Virus record (IMG/VR): IMGVR_UViG_3300050821_007829
Location: 1 to 39,229 of that record
Strand: one strand, 5' to 3'
Source: a virus
Length of the DNA: 39,229 nt
Made by a program: the position numbers and the translations under genes. Below the pieces are notes generated by a model. It was not told the origin of the DNA, did not search any database, and saw only the letters and a list, made by a program, of their open reading frames with translations. Positions 5,560 through 34,968 of the stretch are shown here, one piece after another (the stretch's first letter is position 1; every line of letters starts with the position of its first letter).

Positions 5560-5840
5560 AATCGAGCATCGAAATCGACGCGATCTACGCACACCAGATC
5601 CACGGCGCCGCGCTGTCGCTTGGGCAGCTGATGATCTGGACGGTTTACTTCAACCCGAAAGATTTCCCGGGCTTCTTCGTCGCGCGGCCGACCATCATTC
5701 GGCCGAAAACGTCGGGGCATGTCCCGATGCACTTGATGGCGCGCGACCTGGCCACGTTGCGCACGATGCTGCCCGGCGGGCTGGTGCGTCTCGAGCGCAA
5801 GCCCGAGGACGATCCGGTCATTGTGGAGGTTTGGGTATGA
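5556..5840 (+). CDS. Small phage protein, paralogue of the 6802-7137 gene
   Basis: 94 residues from ATG 5556, overlapping the preceding TGA (ATGA) and preceded by AGGAG. The core WTVYFNPKDFPGFFVARP, then VPMHLMARDLATLRTMLPGG and DDPVIVEVW, aligns closely with the product of the leftward gene at 6802-7137. The two are diverged copies. Function unknown. Confidence 0.8.
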   Translation: MKSSIEIDAIYAHQIHGAALSLGQLMIWTVYFNPKDFPGFFVARPTIIRPKTSGHVPMHLMARDLATLRTMLPGGLVRLERKPEDDPVIVEVWV

Positions 5841-6082
5841 GCGCTCCCGTCTACATGCCGGCCGTCAAACAGATCCGCGACAAGGTTCGCATGGTGAAGC
5901 TCGATCCGCCGAGCTTCGGCGTCCTCTCGACCGGCGAGAAATGCGCGGTGGCGCTGGTGCTCGATGATCCGGAGCTCATCAAATGGTGGGGCACCGCGCT
6001 TGACTGCGTTGACCGGCTCGAAGGCGACTGGATCAAGGCTGCGATCTACGTGCAGCGCAACGGTTGGGAGACTGACCTTTAA
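5837..6082 (+). CDS. Hypothetical protein (81 aa)
   Basis: ATG 5837 overlaps the previous stop (ATGA). The product has a basic N-terminal region (VKQIRDKVRMVKL) and an acidic, Trp-containing C-terminal part (ELIKWWGTALDCVDRLEGDW). No family is recognised. Confidence 0.7.
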   Translation: MSAPVYMPAVKQIRDKVRMVKLDPPSFGVLSTGEKCAVALVLDDPELIKWWGTALDCVDRLEGDWIKAAIYVQRNGWETDL

Positions 6083-17127: not shown

Positions 17128-17535
17128 CTAGTGCGCTTTGAAGGCCGCGATCACGATGCCGAATATAGCCGCGATCGCCCCCACCAGTTTGAAAATGTTG
17201 TCGACGCGCTTCTCGAGCTTGGCGGAAAACTCATCGATTACCCGCTTCACGGAGCGCTTCGAGGCCTTGTGATTGAGCGCAGTCACGATGTCGGACAGCG
17301 ATTTGCGCATGAAGCGCGCCTCAGCCGTCAGCTGCTCGAGCGCATCGAAGCGCAGCTGATTGGATTCCACACTCGCGCGCCGGTCATACGGGAGGCTGCG
17401 CAAATGCGAGACCGTGTCATCGATGCCGCTCGTGAGCGTGGTATCGAACGGCTTTAAGTCCCCGTCCTCGATATCCCAGCGCTCGCGCAGGCGCTGCACT
17501 TCCACACTGGTCGGATGGCGCGCGAGCTTGACCAT
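17128..17535 (-). CDS. Coiled-coil protein with a C-terminal membrane anchor (135 aa)
   Basis: ATG 17535 overlaps the holin-like gene's TAA by one base. Residues about 60-110 are coiled coil (LTAEARFMRKSLSDIV, SVKRVIDEFSAKLEKRVD) and about 113-132 one hydrophobic helix (IFKLVGAIAAIFGIVIAA). This resembles small tail-anchored phage proteins in lysis cassettes. Holin or antiholin function is possible. Confidence 0.7.
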   Translation of the reverse strand: MVKLARHPTSVEVQRLRERWDIEDGDLKPFDTTLTSGIDDTVSHLRSLPYDRRASVESNQLRFDALEQLTAEARFMRKSLSDIVTALNHKASKRSVKRVIDEFSAKLEKRVDNIFKLVGAIAAIFGIVIAAFKAH

Positions 17536-17762
17536 TACGGTTCTTTGGGCTGGAAGAACGTGTTGTAGAGCCCGACCACAAAGGTGACGATGCCGATCCC
17601 TAACATCGTGTGCGCCATGCTGGCGGCCGGAATGAAGAGGCCGAGCTTCTCCTGATTCTCGAAACAGTACGCCGCCGCCATGCCGACGCCGCCGATCGCC
17701 TTCGTGCGATGCGACCAGACCCAGGCGGCGCCGGCCCGCAGCTGCGTAATGCATAACTGCAT
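17535..17762 (-). CDS. Holin-like membrane protein (75 aa)
   Basis: ATG 17762, 5 nt after the endolysin stop. Two hydrophobic segments, about residues 21-34 (KAIGGVGMAAAYCF) and 47-67 (ASMAHTMLGIGIVTFVVGLY), a short basic N-terminus and a charged end fit a small two-span holin. It lies directly after the endolysin. Holins share little sequence, so the call rests on size, topology and place. Confidence 0.65.
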   Translation of the reverse strand: MQLCITQLRAGAAWVWSHRTKAIGGVGMAAAYCFENQEKLGLFIPAASMAHTMLGIGIVTFVVGLYNTFFQPKEP

Positions 17763-27754: not shown

Positions 27755-28090
27755 TTACCTTCTCCTGGCGCGCTCGCGCGCCGGCGGCGCATCGGCCATG
27801 GAATTTAATTGCGCAACGAACTTGGCGCGCGCGGCGGCGTCGAGATCCGCCTTCGGCTTAAGCATGAATTTGTCCATGTTCAAACTCGCGCCCTCTTTCA
27901 AATGCGGCCGCAGCAGCTCGGTGATGATCAGCGCTGCGTGCAGGTTGTCGCGATGCGGACCCCACGGCTCCTCGCTCCAGTACCTCGCCCAGCGCTCGAG
28001 CTCGCGCGCCGGCAGTTCATCGAGCTCGCCCAAGGATCGCCCGAGCAGGGATGCGAGCCGGTGCTCGAACATCTGCTCGGGCGTCAGGCG
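27755..28090 (-). CDS. Tail assembly chaperone, frameshift extension (T-like)
   Basis: The frame after the slip site encodes RLTPEQMFEHRLASLLGRSL, then ARYWSEEPWGPHRDNLHAA, similar to DUF4035/lambda T-type extensions. An ATG at 28072 could start a 105-aa product by itself, but the better model is a -1 frameshift at 28090-28096 fusing it to the upstream 90-aa chaperone, about 200 residues in total. In lambda the G and GT products are both needed to load the tape measure. Confidence 0.85.
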   Translation of the reverse strand, partial: RLTPEQMFEHRLASLLGRSLGELDELPARELERWARYWSEEPWGPHRDNLHAALIITELLRPHLKEGASLNMDKFMLKPKADLDAAARAKFVAQLNSMADAPPARERARRR

Positions 28091-28096
28091 TTTTTT
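28039..28096 (-). promoter_or_regulatory. Programmed -1 frameshift signal (tail chaperones)
   Basis: The heptamer A_AAA_AAC at 28090-28096 lies in the zero frame (GGA AAA AAC), two codons before the stop. After a 7-nt spacer comes a perfect 10-bp stem, GCCCGAGCAG (28073-28082) with CTGCTCGGGC (28039-28048), and a small inner stem GAGC/GCTC. This is the classic slip site plus stimulator arrangement. Confidence 0.88.
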
Positions 28097-28356
28097 CCCT
28101 CGTCACCGTCCTTCGTCGACGACAAGCGAAAGGCCTCCTCGCTGATCGCCTTCAAGATCGCGTGCGGCTCATCCGCGCAGGCCTGCTCGGAGGCGAACTT
28201 CGGATCCACCGTGCAGGCCCAGGCCATGTAGGCCTCGACCGTCTCCGGCGCATCCTTCAGGCGCTTACGGATCTCCCGCATGTGCCGCCCGCTGATCTCG
28301 CGCACCGTGTACGTCGCGCCGCGCACGGTGACCGTATTGGTCAGCAGTTCGCTCAT
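28084..28356 (-). CDS. Tail assembly chaperone (G-like)
   Basis: 90 residues from ATG 28356, overlapping the tail-tube stop (ATGA). TVTVRGATYTVREISGRHMR and EAYMAWACTVDP fit the small phage tail-chaperone proteins placed between tube and tape measure. The end (KDGDEGKNA) runs through the slippery A_AAA_AAC. Confidence 0.87.
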   Translation of the reverse strand: MSELLTNTVTVRGATYTVREISGRHMREIRKRLKDAPETVEAYMAWACTVDPKFASEQACADEPHAILKAISEEAFRLSSTKDGDEGKNA

Positions 28357-28787
28357 GGCTGCGTGCGCAGGATCGGGCCGGTGATCTTTCCGATGAACTT
28401 GATCACGTTTTGCTTCGCGACCTGCGGGTCCAATTCCCAATCGAGCATCGCGAGGGTCAGGTGAAAGGTTCGCATCGGCGACTCGCCGTCGACCTGCACC
28501 TGGAAGTTGCGATTGTTCTTCGCTTCCACGTCCGCGATCAGGCCTTCCTGGATCGGCTCGTTCATGGCGTAGTTCGCGCCGAACGTGAGCTGCTTGCCGT
28601 CCGCGAGGCCGCCGATATATTGCTTGTGGCCGCCGCTGCAGAACGTGGTGACATCGATCAGCGCATTCGCCGCACCGATCCCTGACATCGTGTCGACCTC
28701 GCAGTAGCGCGTGAATTGCTCGGGGGAAGCACCGTTGCCCACCGCAAGAAAAATGTTCCCGACAAAGGGCTTTGCATCTTCGATCAT
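28353..28787 (-). CDS. Major tail (tube) protein
   Basis: 144 residues from ATG 28787, with GGAGG at 8-nt spacing, one of the strongest ribosome sites in the late unit, as expected for an abundant protein. The sequence (FVGNIFLAVGNGASPEQFTR, DSYT-like ALIDVTTFCSGG, FHLTLAMLDWELD) fits small tail-tube proteins. Position between terminator/neck genes and chaperones agrees. Confidence 0.85.
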   Translation of the reverse strand: MIEDAKPFVGNIFLAVGNGASPEQFTRYCEVDTMSGIGAANALIDVTTFCSGGHKQYIGGLADGKQLTFGANYAMNEPIQEGLIADVEAKNNRNFQVQVDGESPMRTFHLTLAMLDWELDPQVAKQNVIKFIGKITGPILRTQP

Positions 28788-28789
28788 GA

Positions 28790-29182
28790 TCAATCCTCCA
28801 AGTACCAAACGTTATAGAGCTGAACGACTCGAATGATCCCAGGATCGGGATCGACCATCGGAAACTCGTTGGCGAGAAACATCTTTTGTACGAGCGTCGG
28901 ACCCATCGCAACGTTCGTCAGGTTTTGGAACAGCAGCCGCAAGGCCTTCGCCACGGCCCAGGCGGTGTCGCCATCGATGCCGAAACTATCGATCTGCATC
29001 GAGGCGTCGGCGAGCGGTGCCACGCCGCAGAACAGTTCCTGGCGCTGCGTGTGGGCGCGCTGCACGTTGATCGACGGCAGCGGCGTGTTTGGCTCCCGGA
29101 TCAGCCCATAGATGCGCTGTGCCACCAGCGCCGATATCGTTGGCGCCGCGATCAAAAAATTCCGTAGGTCTGTCTCTAGCAT
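28790..29182 (-). CDS. Tail terminator/completion protein (DUF3168-like)
   Basis: 130 residues from ATG 29182, sharing one base with the previous TGA. MLETDLRNFLIAAPTISALV, RIYGLIREPNTPLPSI, MQIDSFGIDGDTAWAVAKAL is the DUF3168 pattern. These proteins cap the tail tube at the neck. Confidence 0.83.
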   Translation of the reverse strand: MLETDLRNFLIAAPTISALVAQRIYGLIREPNTPLPSINVQRAHTQRQELFCGVAPLADASMQIDSFGIDGDTAWAVAKALRLLFQNLTNVAMGPTLVQKMFLANEFPMVDPDPGIIRVVQLYNVWYLED

Positions 29183-30901: not shown

Positions 30902-31657
30902 TCATGGGCTTATCTCACACCGCCCGTTACCCGTGGAACAATCCTGGCGCGGCTTCGGCCGATAGTTATCCACGTCCGCGCCGATCAGCGTCGCGAGGTG
31001 CGCCATGGTCGGGTCCGGGGTGTAGCCGCTCTGGTTTCTCCACCCCATCGTCGTACCCTGCCTGCCCGGCAGTCCCTTGATGCCGACCACCGTGCCGATG
31101 TCCTGCCAGAGCTTTTTCGTCCCCTCGAACGCGCGCCATAAGCCCAAGTCCACCGAGCCCGAATCGATCGACGCGCAGATCCTTTTCAGCAGCGGAAACA
31201 CGCTGCGCGTGAGCCCGGTCTGGCACAGCGAGCTGTGCGGCGAGCTCGCGCCCATCGTGCGGTGACAGCGTTTGCCCACGTGGTAGTAGACGATGCCCTG
31301 GAAGCCGAACATAGCGTGCGACTTGAGCTCGTCTTCGATCACTTCGATGTGCCAGCAGCTGTACCAGTCATCGTCCTCAACGAAGGCCACGCTGTCGTGC
31401 TTCACGCGCTCGAGCGCTGCGAGCAGATTTACGGGCAAGGTGTGGGGCGGATCGCCGCGCTGAGGATGCCTGCGCACGATCTGGACGTCCGCGATACCGC
31501 AGCGCCGTTGCAATTCTTCGCTCACAAACCCGAACGGCATTTTCCCGTCATCCACAATGACCCACTGATCCGGCCTGCGCGTCTGCCGCGCCATATATTT
31601 GACGCAGAGGGCGAAGGGGATGGGGCGATCGCCGGTACAGGTGACGACGCTGATCAT
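30902..31657 (-). CDS. Family-2-like glycosyltransferase
   Basis: 251 residues from ATG 31657 (ATGA overlap). ISVVTCTGDRPIPFALCVKY, QWVIVDDGKMP and VAFVEDDDWYS (DxD-type EDDDWY at residues 94-99) are the nucleotide-sugar binding elements of GT-A enzymes. It lies between capsid and connector genes, not in the usual set of head genes. It may modify virion proteins or the host surface; the target is unknown. Confidence 0.8.
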   Translation of the reverse strand: MISVVTCTGDRPIPFALCVKYMARQTRRPDQWVIVDDGKMPFGFVSEELQRRCGIADVQIVRRHPQRGDPPHTLPVNLLAALERVKHDSVAFVEDDDWYSCWHIEVIEDELKSHAMFGFQGIVYYHVGKRCHRTMGASSPHSSLCQTGLTRSVFPLLKRICASIDSGSVDLGLWRAFEGTKKLWQDIGTVVGIKGLPGRQGTTMGWRNQSGYTPDPTMAHLATLIGADVDNYRPKPRQDCSTGNGRCEISP

Positions 31658-32397
31658 TGCATCGTCCCCGCTTCCCAGGGCCCGTCCCAGGACGAGGTCA
31701 AGCAGCCGAACACTTCGGTGTTGGGCAATTTTGCGTAGCGCTGGCGCAGTTCGCGCAGGATGAAGTGCGTCTCGACGCGCTCGGCAAGAAAAGCTATGCA
31801 GCGCCGCTGCCTTGGGTCGTAGCGCATGAACCGCGAGCGGTATCGCTTCGCGAACTCCTGATAGAGCGGAAAGACCACGCTCACTATCTGGCGCACCAGG
31901 CTGCCGGGGTAGACGCCCATGGCGACGCCGCCCTCGATGAGCGCCGGCTCCGCCTCGAGCGCGCGCCGCTCGCCGTGGGTCATCACGCCCATGGCCACGG
32001 CCAGGTTCAAGCAGTCGTACAAATCAATGCGATGGTGGCAGCTATCCCACTGCTCCTTGATGTTCCGATGCCGGCGGCCGACGGCGAAAAAATCGTGCAG
32101 GCACAGCAGAAAATCGGACCCTTGATGCGGTTCGGTCTCGGCGCGCGGCATCTGCGCGCATTGCGCTTCGGAGATCCGATTGTGCGGCAGATCGGGTTTG
32201 CGCGTGACGATCTTGCGATAGCCGCACACATTCATGAGGCCAACTTCCGGCGCGCGCTCCGCGAGCACTGGGTGCGCGACGACCGAGACTAAGGCCTGGT
32301 AGTCGTGGCCCTTCGGCGTCTCGATGATCTCGTCGTACAGGTGCGCCGAGAGCCGCGGCGGCCGGTGCGCGATGCAGAAGGTGGGGATTAATTGCAT
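31654..32397 (-). CDS. Hypothetical protein of the glycan cassette (247 aa)
   Basis: ATG 32397 is chosen because the conserved-looking start MQLIPTFCIAHRPPRL follows. Contains EVGLMNVCGYRKIVTRK, LCLHDFFAVGRRHRNIKEQW and GGVAMGVYPGSLV. I do not recognise a family; coupling to the glycosyltransferase (ATGA) suggests a shared pathway. The beginning has features of small sugar-enzyme folds, but this is not a firm call. Confidence 0.7.
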   Translation of the reverse strand: MQLIPTFCIAHRPPRLSAHLYDEIIETPKGHDYQALVSVVAHPVLAERAPEVGLMNVCGYRKIVTRKPDLPHNRISEAQCAQMPRAETEPHQGSDFLLCLHDFFAVGRRHRNIKEQWDSCHHRIDLYDCLNLAVAMGVMTHGERRALEAEPALIEGGVAMGVYPGSLVRQIVSVVFPLYQEFAKRYRSRFMRYDPRQRRCIAFLAERVETHFILRELRQRYAKLPNTEVFGCLTSSWDGPWEAGTMQ

Positions 32398-32402
32398 TGC
32401 AA

Positions 32403-32561
32403 TTATTCCGAGCGCGGCAGCACTTCGGCCTGCCCGCCGATGACCCACATGGCGAGCTTCAGCAGCTGCGTGCCCAGCCAGACGCGAAAGATGAACACGC
32501 GGCTGAGGCGGATCTCCAGAACCAGCGACTCGAGGTCGGGCATGACGGTGAGCGCCTTCAC
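32403..32561 (-). CDS. Hypothetical hydrophobic protein (52 aa)
   Basis: GTG 32561 overlaps the DUF3309 stop (GTGA). VFIFRVWLGTQLLKLAMWVI at residues about 22-41 is a hydrophobic or amphipathic helix. No family recognised. Confidence 0.65.
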   Translation of the reverse strand: MKALTVMPDLESLVLEIRLSRVFIFRVWLGTQLLKLAMWVIGGQAEVLPRSE

Positions 32562-32710
32562 AATCGACCGGTGATCAGCAGCACGAGCAGCACGAGCAGC
32601 ACCAAACCGCCGCCGCCGTAGCCGTACGAGTAGCCGCCGAAACCGCCGCCGACACACAGCAGCAGCACGATGATGAGCACGATCGAAAGTGTGCTCAAGC
32701 GAACTTTCAT
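32558..32710 (-). CDS. DUF3309-like small membrane protein (50 aa)
   Basis: ATG 32710 with a strong AGGAGG (5-nt spacing). Two hydrophobic stretches (STLSIVLIIVLLLCV and LVLLVLLVLLITG) flank a Gly/Tyr turn (GGYSYGYGGGG), as in DUF3309. Known DUF3309 proteins occur in soil and plant-associated Proteobacteria. Role unknown. Confidence 0.78.
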   Translation of the reverse strand: MKVRLSTLSIVLIIVLLLCVGGGFGGYSYGYGGGGLVLLVLLVLLITGRL

Positions 32711-33354
32711 AGAACCTCCTCGATCGCGCGGCGGGGAAAGCAGTTGATCGCGGTGCGCCGGCTGCAGTTGATGACCTCGACGCCGGCGGCCTTCAAATCC
32801 ACGGCGAGGGAATTCATCGCAGCGACCCAGGTCGGATACGTGCCGCCGTTGCCCAATCCCTTCGGGTGATCGCCGTGCCAATGCGTGCGCGCGCCGTCGC
32901 GCGAGAAGTCAAACCCTAGGAGCAGGATGCGTGCGGCGCCGAACAGATACGCGAGGCCCATCGCCTGGTAGCCGGAATTTTTGCCCTGGTGAATGCAGGT
33001 TGGATCTTTCGCGAGGCCTGGGCTGTCGGCGCCGTAGATCCAATGCAGATCGAAGCGATCGCGCGCCCGGGCGTTCACGGTCCACTTCTCGCCGTGAAAG
33101 GTGCGCGCGACTTCCGGAAAGTAGGCCATCCACCAGGTCTCGTCACACGCATAGAGCACGTCCGCCCACAGCGCGCGCCGGAAGCTCGTGTTGACGGCTA
33201 TCGTTTTGCATTTGCCTTGGACGTAGACGCAGTCGGCCTCTGTAAGACTCGGGCCACTCGCGATAATGCAGACGGTTTCTCCCCGCCAGCGTCCTCCGGG
33301 TCCTCCGTGTGCGGCCGCTGCAGGTCCTCGTCCGGCTGCAGCACCGGCGGCGCG
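32707..33354 (-). CDS. MptE-like (DUF115-type) glycan protein, probably made by -1 frameshift
   Basis: The frame encodes VCIIASGPSLT, then IAVNTSFRRALWADVLYACD, HQGKNSGYQAMGLAYLFGA, LGFDFSRDGARTHWHGDHP and VINCSRRTAINCFPR, a clear MptE-like phage family often found with glycan genes. Its first ATG/GTG/TTG is GTG 33159, which would delete the conserved IASGPSLT segment. The frame is open back to a TAG near 33469 without any start codon. A slippery A_AAA_AAC in the overlapping upstream gene (33354-33360) leads exactly into this frame. Fused, the protein is 278 residues. The biochemical role in phages is not established. Confidence 0.75.
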   Translation of the reverse strand, partial: RAAGAAAGRGPAAAAHGGPGGRWRGETVCIIASGPSLTEADCVYVQGKCKTIAVNTSFRRALWADVLYACDETWWMAYFPEVARTFHGEKWTVNARARDRFDLHWIYGADSPGLAKDPTCIHQGKNSGYQAMGLAYLFGAARILLLGFDFSRDGARTHWHGDHPKGLGNGGTYPTWVAAMNSLAVDLKAAGVEVINCSRRTAINCFPRRAIEEVL

Positions 33355-33542
33355 TTTTTTACTGACGGCGCTCCCGGGAAGGCCTGCGTGCGATCGGGCT
33401 TGATCTCGTCCGCGATGATTTCGATCAGGCCTTTGGATCGCAGAGCCAGCGCGTAGTTCTTCTCCGAACTAAATCGCGTGCCGGCGCGGATATAGCCGTA
33501 CTGCGTGCTGTTGAAGGTCTTGATTGCTTTGCACTGTGGCAT
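33198..33542 (-). CDS. Small head-region protein carrying a slippery site (114 aa)
   Basis: ATG 33542 with AGGAG upstream. KAIKTFNSTQYGYIRAGTRF and ALRSKGLIEIIADE form a small domain of a type common after capsid genes; the rest (residues about 50-114) is a polar linker. The GTA AAA AAC at residues 61-63 is the proposed -1 slip site joining the MptE-like frame. Without slip the protein ends at 33198 in a basic tail. Confidence 0.78.
   Translation of the reverse strand: MPQCKAIKTFNSTQYGYIRAGTRFSSEKNYALALRSKGLIEIIADEIKPDRTQAFPGAPSVKNAPPVLQPDEDLQRPHTEDPEDAGGEKPSALSRVARVLQRPTASTSKANAKR
33314..33360 (-). promoter_or_regulatory. Candidate -1 frameshift signal (MptE-like fusion)
   Basis: A_AAA_AAC at 33354-33360 is in the zero frame of the 114-aa gene (GTA AAA AAC). 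Downstream, GCTGCAG (33336-33342) pairs with CTGCAGC (33317-33323), with an outer GCC (33346-33348) and GGC (33314-33316), so the spacer is 5-11 nt. The same heptamer operates in the tail-chaperone genes. Confidence 0.65.
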
Positions 33543-33609: not shown

Positions 33610-34968
33610 CTACGAGACCTCGGTGCTCTCGCCGGCCGGGACGAAGCCGTGGATCAGCGCCTGGCCGCGCGACACGCCGAGCGCGAGGCGTTCCTCGAAC
33701 AGCACGGTCACCAAGTTGCGCACGAAGTTGTCTTGGTCTTCGTTGCTCACCAGGATCTGCGCTTCCTCGCGATCGAACAGCGTCGCGCACAGCTTGAACG
33801 CGCCCACAAGGAACTCGCCGGCCGCCATCGAGTAGCACTGCGCGACGGGCAGTCCCCACAGCATCCCAGGGCTCGAGCCCGTTGGGCTCGCGATCATGTA
33901 CCGGCCCAAGGTGTCCTTGGTCAGTTCGAGATCGTGCCAATCGGTCGGGCTCATGGCGATGCCGGTGGCTGGATAGAACGCCAGGTTCACCTGCAACATC
34001 GCATGGCGGATCACATCGATGCGCGTGTCGTTCGGACGCTTGAAAGCGTTCGGCGTGTACGCGGTCGCCTGCGGGACCAGCCCCAGCAAATTATCGCCGG
34101 TGCCGTCACCGTAGAGGATCTGCTTTTCCTCGACCAGCTTCAGACCGAACGTCCCTCGCCCGTTGATCAGCGTCATCAGCTGCGAGAAGTCTGCGAGGAT
34201 CTGTTTGGACGCCTTGATCCAGTGCGCGAGGGTGCGCACCGGAATGGTGTCGCGCTCGTAGGTGATGTCCGACTGGGGTTTTAAGGCCCCTTCGGAGACC
34301 GGCGCCGCGTTGTTGGTGAACAGCGTTTCCTTCACCCACTCGATCAGGTTCGACGTGGTCGTGCCGACGTCGAGCAGATCCCGAATGGTCAGCGGCTGGA
34401 AGGGCGGAATGACCGGAGTCGGCAGGAACTCAGGGAACGCGCCGGCGCCGCCGGTGATGGTCGTGATGTTCTTCACCTGGAAAGGTTTCATCGACATGCG
34501 CAATGAACCTGCGCGCTTCGCGAAGTCCTTCCATTCCTCCGACTCGATCACCTGCTGGCCGAGCGATTTGAATTTCGCGCCGCCACCGCCGATGCCTCCG
34601 CGCGCCAGCCATTTCTGCTCGAGATCCAAGAGCCGCGCATCGCTCGCGGCGCGCTCGGCTTTCAGTTTCTCGTGCTCGGCGATCAGTTTGGCGCCATCCT
34701 CGTTGAGTTTGGCCACGGCGGATTTGACGCCCTCCTGCACCTCGCCGTAGGTCTTGACGTTCTTCTCGACCTCGTCCAGAACCTCCTTAACTTTTTTGCC
34801 GTGCGCGTCGAGCGCTTCCTTGATCGCGGTGCGCAGCTGATCGCTCGTCGGGCCGTCGGCGCGCGCCCAGGCGCCAGAATAAAAATAGCTGTCCGTCTCG
34901 AGTACTCGAGAGGTGGCCATATCGATGACGCCGCGCGTGATGACGCGACGCGGTTTGGGTAGAAACAT
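33610..34968 (-). CDS. HK97-fold major capsid protein
   Basis: 452 residues from ATG 34968 (AGGAA upstream); ATG 34920 (MATSRVLE) is an alternative. Residues about 40-120 are coiled coil (delta or scaffold domain, removed by the protease). The mature fold has PVIPPFQPLTIRDLLDVGTT, WIKASKQILADFSQL, GDGTGDNLLGLVP, NFVRNLVTVLFEERLALGV, typical of the family. Confidence 0.95.
   Translation of the reverse strand: MFLPKPRRVITRGVIDMATSRVLETDSYFYSGAWARADGPTSDQLRTAIKEALDAHGKKVKEVLDEVEKNVKTYGEVQEGVKSAVAKLNEDGAKLIAEHEKLKAERAASDARLLDLEQKWLARGGIGGGGAKFKSLGQQVIESEEWKDFAKRAGSLRMSMKPFQVKNITTITGGAGAFPEFLPTPVIPPFQPLTIRDLLDVGTTTSNLIEWVKETLFTNNAAPVSEGALKPQSDITYERDTIPVRTLAHWIKASKQILADFSQLMTLINGRGTFGLKLVEEKQILYGDGTGDNLLGLVPQATAYTPNAFKRPNDTRIDVIRHAMLQVNLAFYPATGIAMSPTDWHDLELTKDTLGRYMIASPTGSSPGMLWGLPVAQCYSMAAGEFLVGAFKLCATLFDREEAQILVSNEDQDNFVRNLVTVLFEERLALGVSRGQALIHGFVPAGESTEVS

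Follow-up and report, generated by a model that had tools for sequence, protein, structure and literature searches.

A -1 frameshift in the tail assembly chaperone genes, the lambda G-GT case, is said to have been described by Xu and co-workers in 2004. Recoding in the head region is also known, as frameshift-extended capsid proteins occur in T7/T3 (gene 10), Lactobacillus A2 and Listeria PSA, the PSA shift being +1 (PMC5009743). The FlmG protein of Caulobacter joins a substrate-binding N-terminal domain to a C-terminal glycosyltransferase (PMC7591256). The central domain of the flagellin glycosyltransferase Maf is Pfam 01973 and resembles Cst-II (PMC11339370).

The window, that is the whole stretch of 39,229 nucleotides analysed here (viral record IMGVR_UViG_3300050821_007829), encodes a small protein and an enzyme domain in overlapping frames (Table 1). 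In all likelihood, as judged from sequence, the two frames are joined by a -1 shift into a fusion protein, and we place the slip at A_AAA_AAC with good confidence. Comparison with related loci identifies the window as one instance of a widespread and conserved predicted -1 frameshift. The heptamer is in phase in the small gene, where the codons read GTA AAA AAC. Between a TAG at 33471-33469 and its stop at 32707 the enzyme frame has no interruption; it includes ...GGRWRGETVCIIASGPSL..., and its first ATG, GTG or TTG is the GTG at 33159, located downstream of VCIIASGPSL, leaving a conserved core without a canonical start before it. A slip at the heptamer would produce the junction SVKN/RAAGAAAG. 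The coordinates, the missing start, the TAG, the zero-frame heptamer, the 278-aa fusion and this junction had all been put forward in the initial annotation, and they hold on recheck of the sequence.

Table 1. Features of the recoded gene pair and its surroundings, in positions of the window.
Feature	Position	Strand	Remarks
Upstream zero-frame gene, 114 aa	33198..33542	-	ATG start; residues 1-63 common to the predicted fusion
Slippery heptamer A_AAA_AAC	33354..33360	-	In phase with the 114-aa gene
7-bp stem GCTGCAG/CTGCAGC	33317..33342	-	Arms 33342-33336 / 33323-33317, 11 nt 3' of the heptamer
-1-frame part, 215 aa	32707..33354	-	Linker RAAGAAAGRGPAAAAHGGPGGRW and Maf/GT42-type domain (phrog_4603; PF01973 weak)
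Predicted 278-aa frameshift product	32707..33542	-	63 aa zero frame and 215 aa -1 frame
Major capsid protein, HK97 type (PF05065)	33610..34968	-	Immediately upstream of the 114-aa gene
Possible GT2-type glycosyltransferase	30902..31657	-	E 0.009, below threshold; same interval as the pair, from the capsid to the head-tail adaptor genes

Genes for the capsid, protease, portal and terminase are found upstream of the pair, and a weak GT2-like gene followed by head-tail adaptor, head closure and neck genes downstream. The ORF directly upstream of the small gene encodes an HK97-type capsid protein in all of the loci tested (10/10). The possible GT2-type gene (30902-31657, minus strand) lies between the enzyme gene and the head-tail adaptor genes, a position that hints at a small glycosylation cassette. 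Two more ORFs of this interval (31654-32448 and 32403-32657, minus strand) gave no usable family match, and an NCBIfam search of the gene pair gave no match.

Eight in-phase A/T-type heptamers occur in the 6276 codons of the same-strand genes of the window. Given this frequency and the strong phase bias seen in relatives, the heptamer of the small gene appears to be beyond chance. In the tail chaperone pair (28084-28911 / 27755-28072, minus strand) the G-like gene closes with GGGAAAAAAC (28099-28090). This includes the same heptamer, A_AAA_AAC at 28096-28090, as had been noted before, and the -1 frame then holds a Phage_tail_T ORF (E 8e-9); it is the usual lambda-type tail frameshift. Also as noted before, the AAAAAAC of the portal gene (36985-36979) is out of phase. 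A further in-phase A_AAA_AAC, missed in the initial annotation, is present in terL, encoding the terminase large subunit (38363-38357, minus strand), presumably by chance; the heptamer by itself therefore proves little. A second contig (L001) is 100% identical to the window over 10.6 kb, which disfavours a sequencing error in the A-run, though the two contigs possibly come from the same sample.

A scan of viral contigs, genomes and phage records revealed 262 loci with the enzyme domain, 139 of which are non-redundant at <90% identity. A whole-genome family search added few true members, and its many weak matches were disregarded. In 97 of the 139 loci the enzyme frame has no ATG, GTG or TTG on the way from its upstream stop to the domain. 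In 96 of these 97 a start-bearing ORF overlaps in the frame from which a -1 slip would lead into the enzyme, the lone exception being a truncated contig, whereas the other frame holds such an ORF in 16/97, which is the chance level. The -1-frame overlap was retained at stricter redundancy, in 68/69 loci at <70% identity and 48/48 at <60% identity. In another 13 loci the small domain occupies the -1-related frame, and a start codon is incidentally present as well; the remaining loci have their own start or are fused.

In-phase XXXYYYZ heptamers are present in 55 of the 96 loci, while the two remaining phases have them in 11 and 10. In the closest relatives of the window one and the same alignment position is taken by A_AAA_AAC in some and by G_GGA_AAA in others, a change that alters the amino acids but leaves the site slippery. 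A comparison of homologous loci had been proposed in the initial annotation as a check on both the heptamer and the missing start. The missing start is kept in most loci, but the heptamer is not conserved as such, as AAAAAAC, GGGAAAA, CCCAAAA and CCC-N interchange. Forty-one loci have no in-phase heptamer, and 36 of these have a CCC codon in the new frame. CCC at codons 4–9 before the domain is in phase in 32/41, compared to 19 and 12 in the other phases, a weaker contrast than that of the heptamers, and one seen in GC-rich DNA. In the CCC-only class the second codon re-pairs poorly, and the phase enrichment of CCC is moderate. The other five loci (L129, L134, L138, L165 and L171) have TTTT (T_TTN) at the slip point, in place of CCC or a heptamer.

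In two relatives, L236 and L013, a single ORF covers both the small domain and the enzyme (small-domain HMM iE 5.9e-11 and 1.4e-6). Across the junction the L236 fusion reads ...TKVLRDRPRDGRWDTVVCIASGPSL, and L033, where a slip is needed, would read ...TKVLRDRP/LAGRWRGGTVVCIASGPSL. The two are collinear, with the same junction and the same spacing to GRW, and their N-terminal parts are 60% identical. In L236 the CCC codon is lost, and the hairpin found in slipping relatives pairs at 5/10 positions. The missing start, the -1 overlap, the phase-biased sites and the natural fusions of the related loci all agree with the earlier proposal of a -1 frameshift outside the tail genes that would link a small head-module protein to a glycan-type enzyme.

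The hairpin is found in proximal-slip loci, those with the slip site near the enzyme domain. One arm is GGCCGCTGGC, in the codons for Gly-Arg-Trp, and the other is GCCAGCGGCC, in the codons for Ala-Ser-Gly; the distance from the first slip base is nine nucleotides. RNAalifold and covariation analysis of 34 hairpins found them mostly invariant, with only 4 double-change cells, and since the covariation signal was scant (few double compensatory changes) a synonymous-codon null was used instead. The 34 aligned loci form 9.24/10 pairs, compared to 6.74 ± 0.24 when synonymous codons are redrawn. A wider proximal-slip set forms 8.53/10 pairs, compared to 6.47 under the same null, with a z of 11.4 that, like the other hairpin z values, takes loci as independent and so overstates the certainty somewhat. 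Two control groups provide the stronger argument, as the hairpin is absent both in distal-slip loci (6.06 vs 6.28 pairs under the synonymous null, z -0.9) and in own-start or fused loci (5.15 vs 4.70 pairs). Folding of the 42 nt past the slip gave a z of -2.3 for the proximal class, against -0.15 and -0.4 for controls, and a mean z of -0.73 ± 0.25 for the distal-slip class. Furthermore, an SD-like upstream sequence is favoured in the proximal class (z -3.6), while the SD-like signal of the distal class is not significant (z -1.3). The window belongs to the distal-slip class, and the stimulator signal is established in the proximal-slip relatives only. The stem GCTGCAG/CTGCAGC, which had been pointed out in the initial annotation, is indeed present 11 nt past the heptamer. 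As a stimulator it was rejected: shuffled sequences fold just as well as the region (z -0.07), so that the stem is not evidence by itself, and the pairing of the D3 type is missing from the window's class.

The enzyme domain of the window matches phrog_4603 (alpha-2;3-sialyltransferase) with an E of 2.6e-50 over profile positions 1-173/178, and Pfam PF01973 (MptE-like / Maf_flag10) below the gathering cut-off, with 28 bits vs 34.6 (E 2.2e-6). For the structure search the L236 fusion was modelled in place of the window's protein; it is a homologue that shares 43% identity with the enzyme domain of the window. The best match of the enzyme part of this model was the Maf flagellin glycosyltransferase 5mu5 (Z 15.7, 2.8 Å, 174 residues), followed by MptE HPPK (Z 11.9) and by Cst-I (2p2v, Z 10.9) and Cst-II, at Z 10–11. 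In the model the fold is thus nearest to the Maf core and then to the MptE kinase and the GT42 sialyltransferases, and the predicted activity is that of a glycosyltransferase. The initial annotation called the domain MptE-like; the MptE kinase is among the fold matches, but the core of the Maf flagellin glycosyltransferase is closer.

The small protein of the window consists of an N-terminal domain of ~45 aa, similar to DUF7210/phrog_2616 and with the order b-b-b-b-a-b, followed by a linker. The model of the small domain has a pLDDT of about 90 over residues 1–40. Profile matches to phrog_2616 were found in 25/46 relatives and to Pfam DUF7210 in 5/46, and the window's own protein had none at E 0.01. 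The fold matches are weak and mixed. Lambda gpFI-CTD is one of them (Z 4.9; 43 aa at an rmsd of 1.5 Å), on a par with unrelated folds, and it also turned up in the sequence search (E 0.48). As gpFI is a packaging chaperone bound to the gpE capsid lattice (PMC4856287), the weak fold match makes docking of the small domain on the head a lead rather than a result.

The same gene pair is present after the capsid gene of Pseudomonas phage D3 as orf6.5/orf7 (L089, NC_002484.2, 5691-6409), with C_CCA_AAG in phase at 5837-5843. The annotation lets orf7 begin at an Ile codon, a non-standard start that lies past the SGPSL motif, and thereby cuts off the start of the domain. Most likely, judging by the D3 sequence, the pair is mis-annotated and orf7 is expressed by -1 frameshifting at 5837-5843. 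The record of Pseudomonas phage phi1 (L276, KT887557.1) has no gene call anywhere in the enzyme region (17194-17712), a gap that is expected if gene finders fail because there is no start codon. P1 pmgO and PAJU2 have their own starts. The P1 pair pmgN/pmgO was ruled out as an example, the ORF order being +1-related and pmgO having its own ATG, and in Psp6 no convincing slip site was found nearby. A literature search on frameshifts in connection with D3, PmgO, sialyltransferase and DUF7210, which covered few subscription papers and had the original D3 papers outside its reach, found no description. The arrangement is conserved in many distantly related phages, and the frameshift seems to be undescribed.

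The enzyme frame could instead be translated independently, from a non-AUG start inside the overlap. The Ile codon annotated for D3 orf7 speaks for such a start, as do relatives in which the enzyme has its own ATG beside a different upstream gene (L036, L042, L091 and P1 pmgO). Yet 57 of the 96 loci lack even a near-cognate codon, with no ATG, GTG, TTG, CTG, ATT, ATC or ATA from the upstream stop to the domain; in the window the enzyme frame has a single near-cognate codon, an ATC that precedes the domain by 50 codons. In L044, L192, L194, L199 and L239 a TGA abuts the slip codon, lying directly 5' of CCC, with five codons only before or at the conserved Trp. These two observations make non-AUG initiation unlikely as a general explanation. 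Furthermore, internal initiation predicts no frame preference, yet the overlap is in the -1 frame in 96/97, and we consider this explanation very unlikely. The possibility that the frames were split by sequencing error or gene decay is practically negligible. Apart from the split itself, its only support is that A-runs are error-prone, and it is already refuted by the relatives, where the same -1 relation is found in 96 non-redundant loci and in the sequenced D3. The split also falls at slippery sites, selection maintains both frames and the hairpin, and the second contig of the window is identical. The shift could also arise from slippage of RNA polymerase on the A-run (transcriptional realignment) and not from the ribosome, as the window has six A and L005 and L012 have longer runs. 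Six A is, however, short for transcriptional slippage. The site is GGGAAAA in close relatives and CCC-N in most others, in phase and, in the proximal class, followed by the hairpin. These points make this origin highly improbable.

The frameshifting may also be real while the enzyme modifies another target (host LPS or nucleotides) and the small domain has another role, for example in DNA packaging. This is consistent with the weak resemblance of the small domain to gpFI-CTD, gpFI being the gpE-lattice-bound packaging chaperone (PMC4856287), and with the naming of the enzyme family in Pfam after a pterin kinase. Against it, the nearest fold is a protein (flagellin) glycosyltransferase, the genes sit between the capsid and the head-tail genes, and a second GT-like gene is nearby. 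We give this alternative a considerable chance, somewhat below even.

In the frameshift fusion that we favour, most ribosomes would read the small gene through and produce a DUF7210-like protein with an extended tail. Some would slip one base back at A_AAA_AAC (33360-33354) and produce the 278-aa protein, in which the small domain is followed by a flexible Ala/Gly linker and the Maf/sialyltransferase-like domain. The small protein and the fusion would be made in a fixed ratio, and frameshifting would keep the enzyme sub-stoichiometric to the free small protein. The small domain might then dock the enzyme on the head or prohead, where the enzyme might transfer a sugar, probably of the CMP-activated nonulosonic type, to a virion protein; we regard the chances of these two steps as evenly balanced. 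Synteny, fold and domain layout point to sub-stoichiometric tethering of a glycosyltransferase to the head as the best functional reading, at about an even chance. If true, programmed frameshifting in the head modules of phages would gain a conserved class, found in ~48 groups of <60% identity and in the classical phage D3. The missing start would explain why annotators truncate or miss the enzyme gene, and CCC-N with a hairpin would be a further candidate type of -1 recoding site. It would also provide a testable hypothesis for how phages glycosylate their virions.

What the locus shares with lambda G-GT is an XXXYYYZ site for a -1 slip, placed towards the end of a small gene in a structural module, and the heptamer also occurs in the window's tail pair. 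Unlike in lambda, a head-adjacent protein rather than a tail chaperone is joined to an enzyme domain, and many relatives have CCC-N with a hairpin. With the frameshift-extended capsid proteins it shares recoding in the head region, through which a minor share of the molecules gains a C-terminal domain. There the addition is an Ig-like domain or a short extension, whereas here it is a glycosyltransferase-type enzyme, and the carrier is a small gene after the capsid gene. D3 orf6.5/orf7 is the same pair as in the window; in D3 it is annotated as two separate genes with orf7 truncated, and the slip is proximal. The enzyme-domain fold, as modelled for L236, is that of Maf (5mu5), MptE and the GT42 enzymes Cst-I and Cst-II, but the phage enzyme is much smaller, is reached by frameshifting, has weak sequence similarity to them and has a predicted activity. 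FlmG shares the layout of an N-terminal substrate-binding domain, a putative one in the phage fusion, and a C-terminal glycosyltransferase-type domain; it differs in its TPR domain, its GT-B-type enzyme, its single frame and its flagellin substrate. As in the -1 frameshift of retroviral Gag-Pol, the enzyme would exist only as a minority fusion, tethered by recoding to a structural partner, although virus and proteins are unrelated and incorporation of the fusion into the virion is hypothetical here. We tentatively propose, at slightly less than an even chance, a Gag-Pol-like device in tailed phages, in which frameshifting by -1 (in many lineages on just one codon, at CCC-N, next to a conserved hairpin) would attach a low-copy Maf-type glycosyltransferase to a small head-binding protein, so that the head would be glycosylated by, or would carry, its own enzyme.
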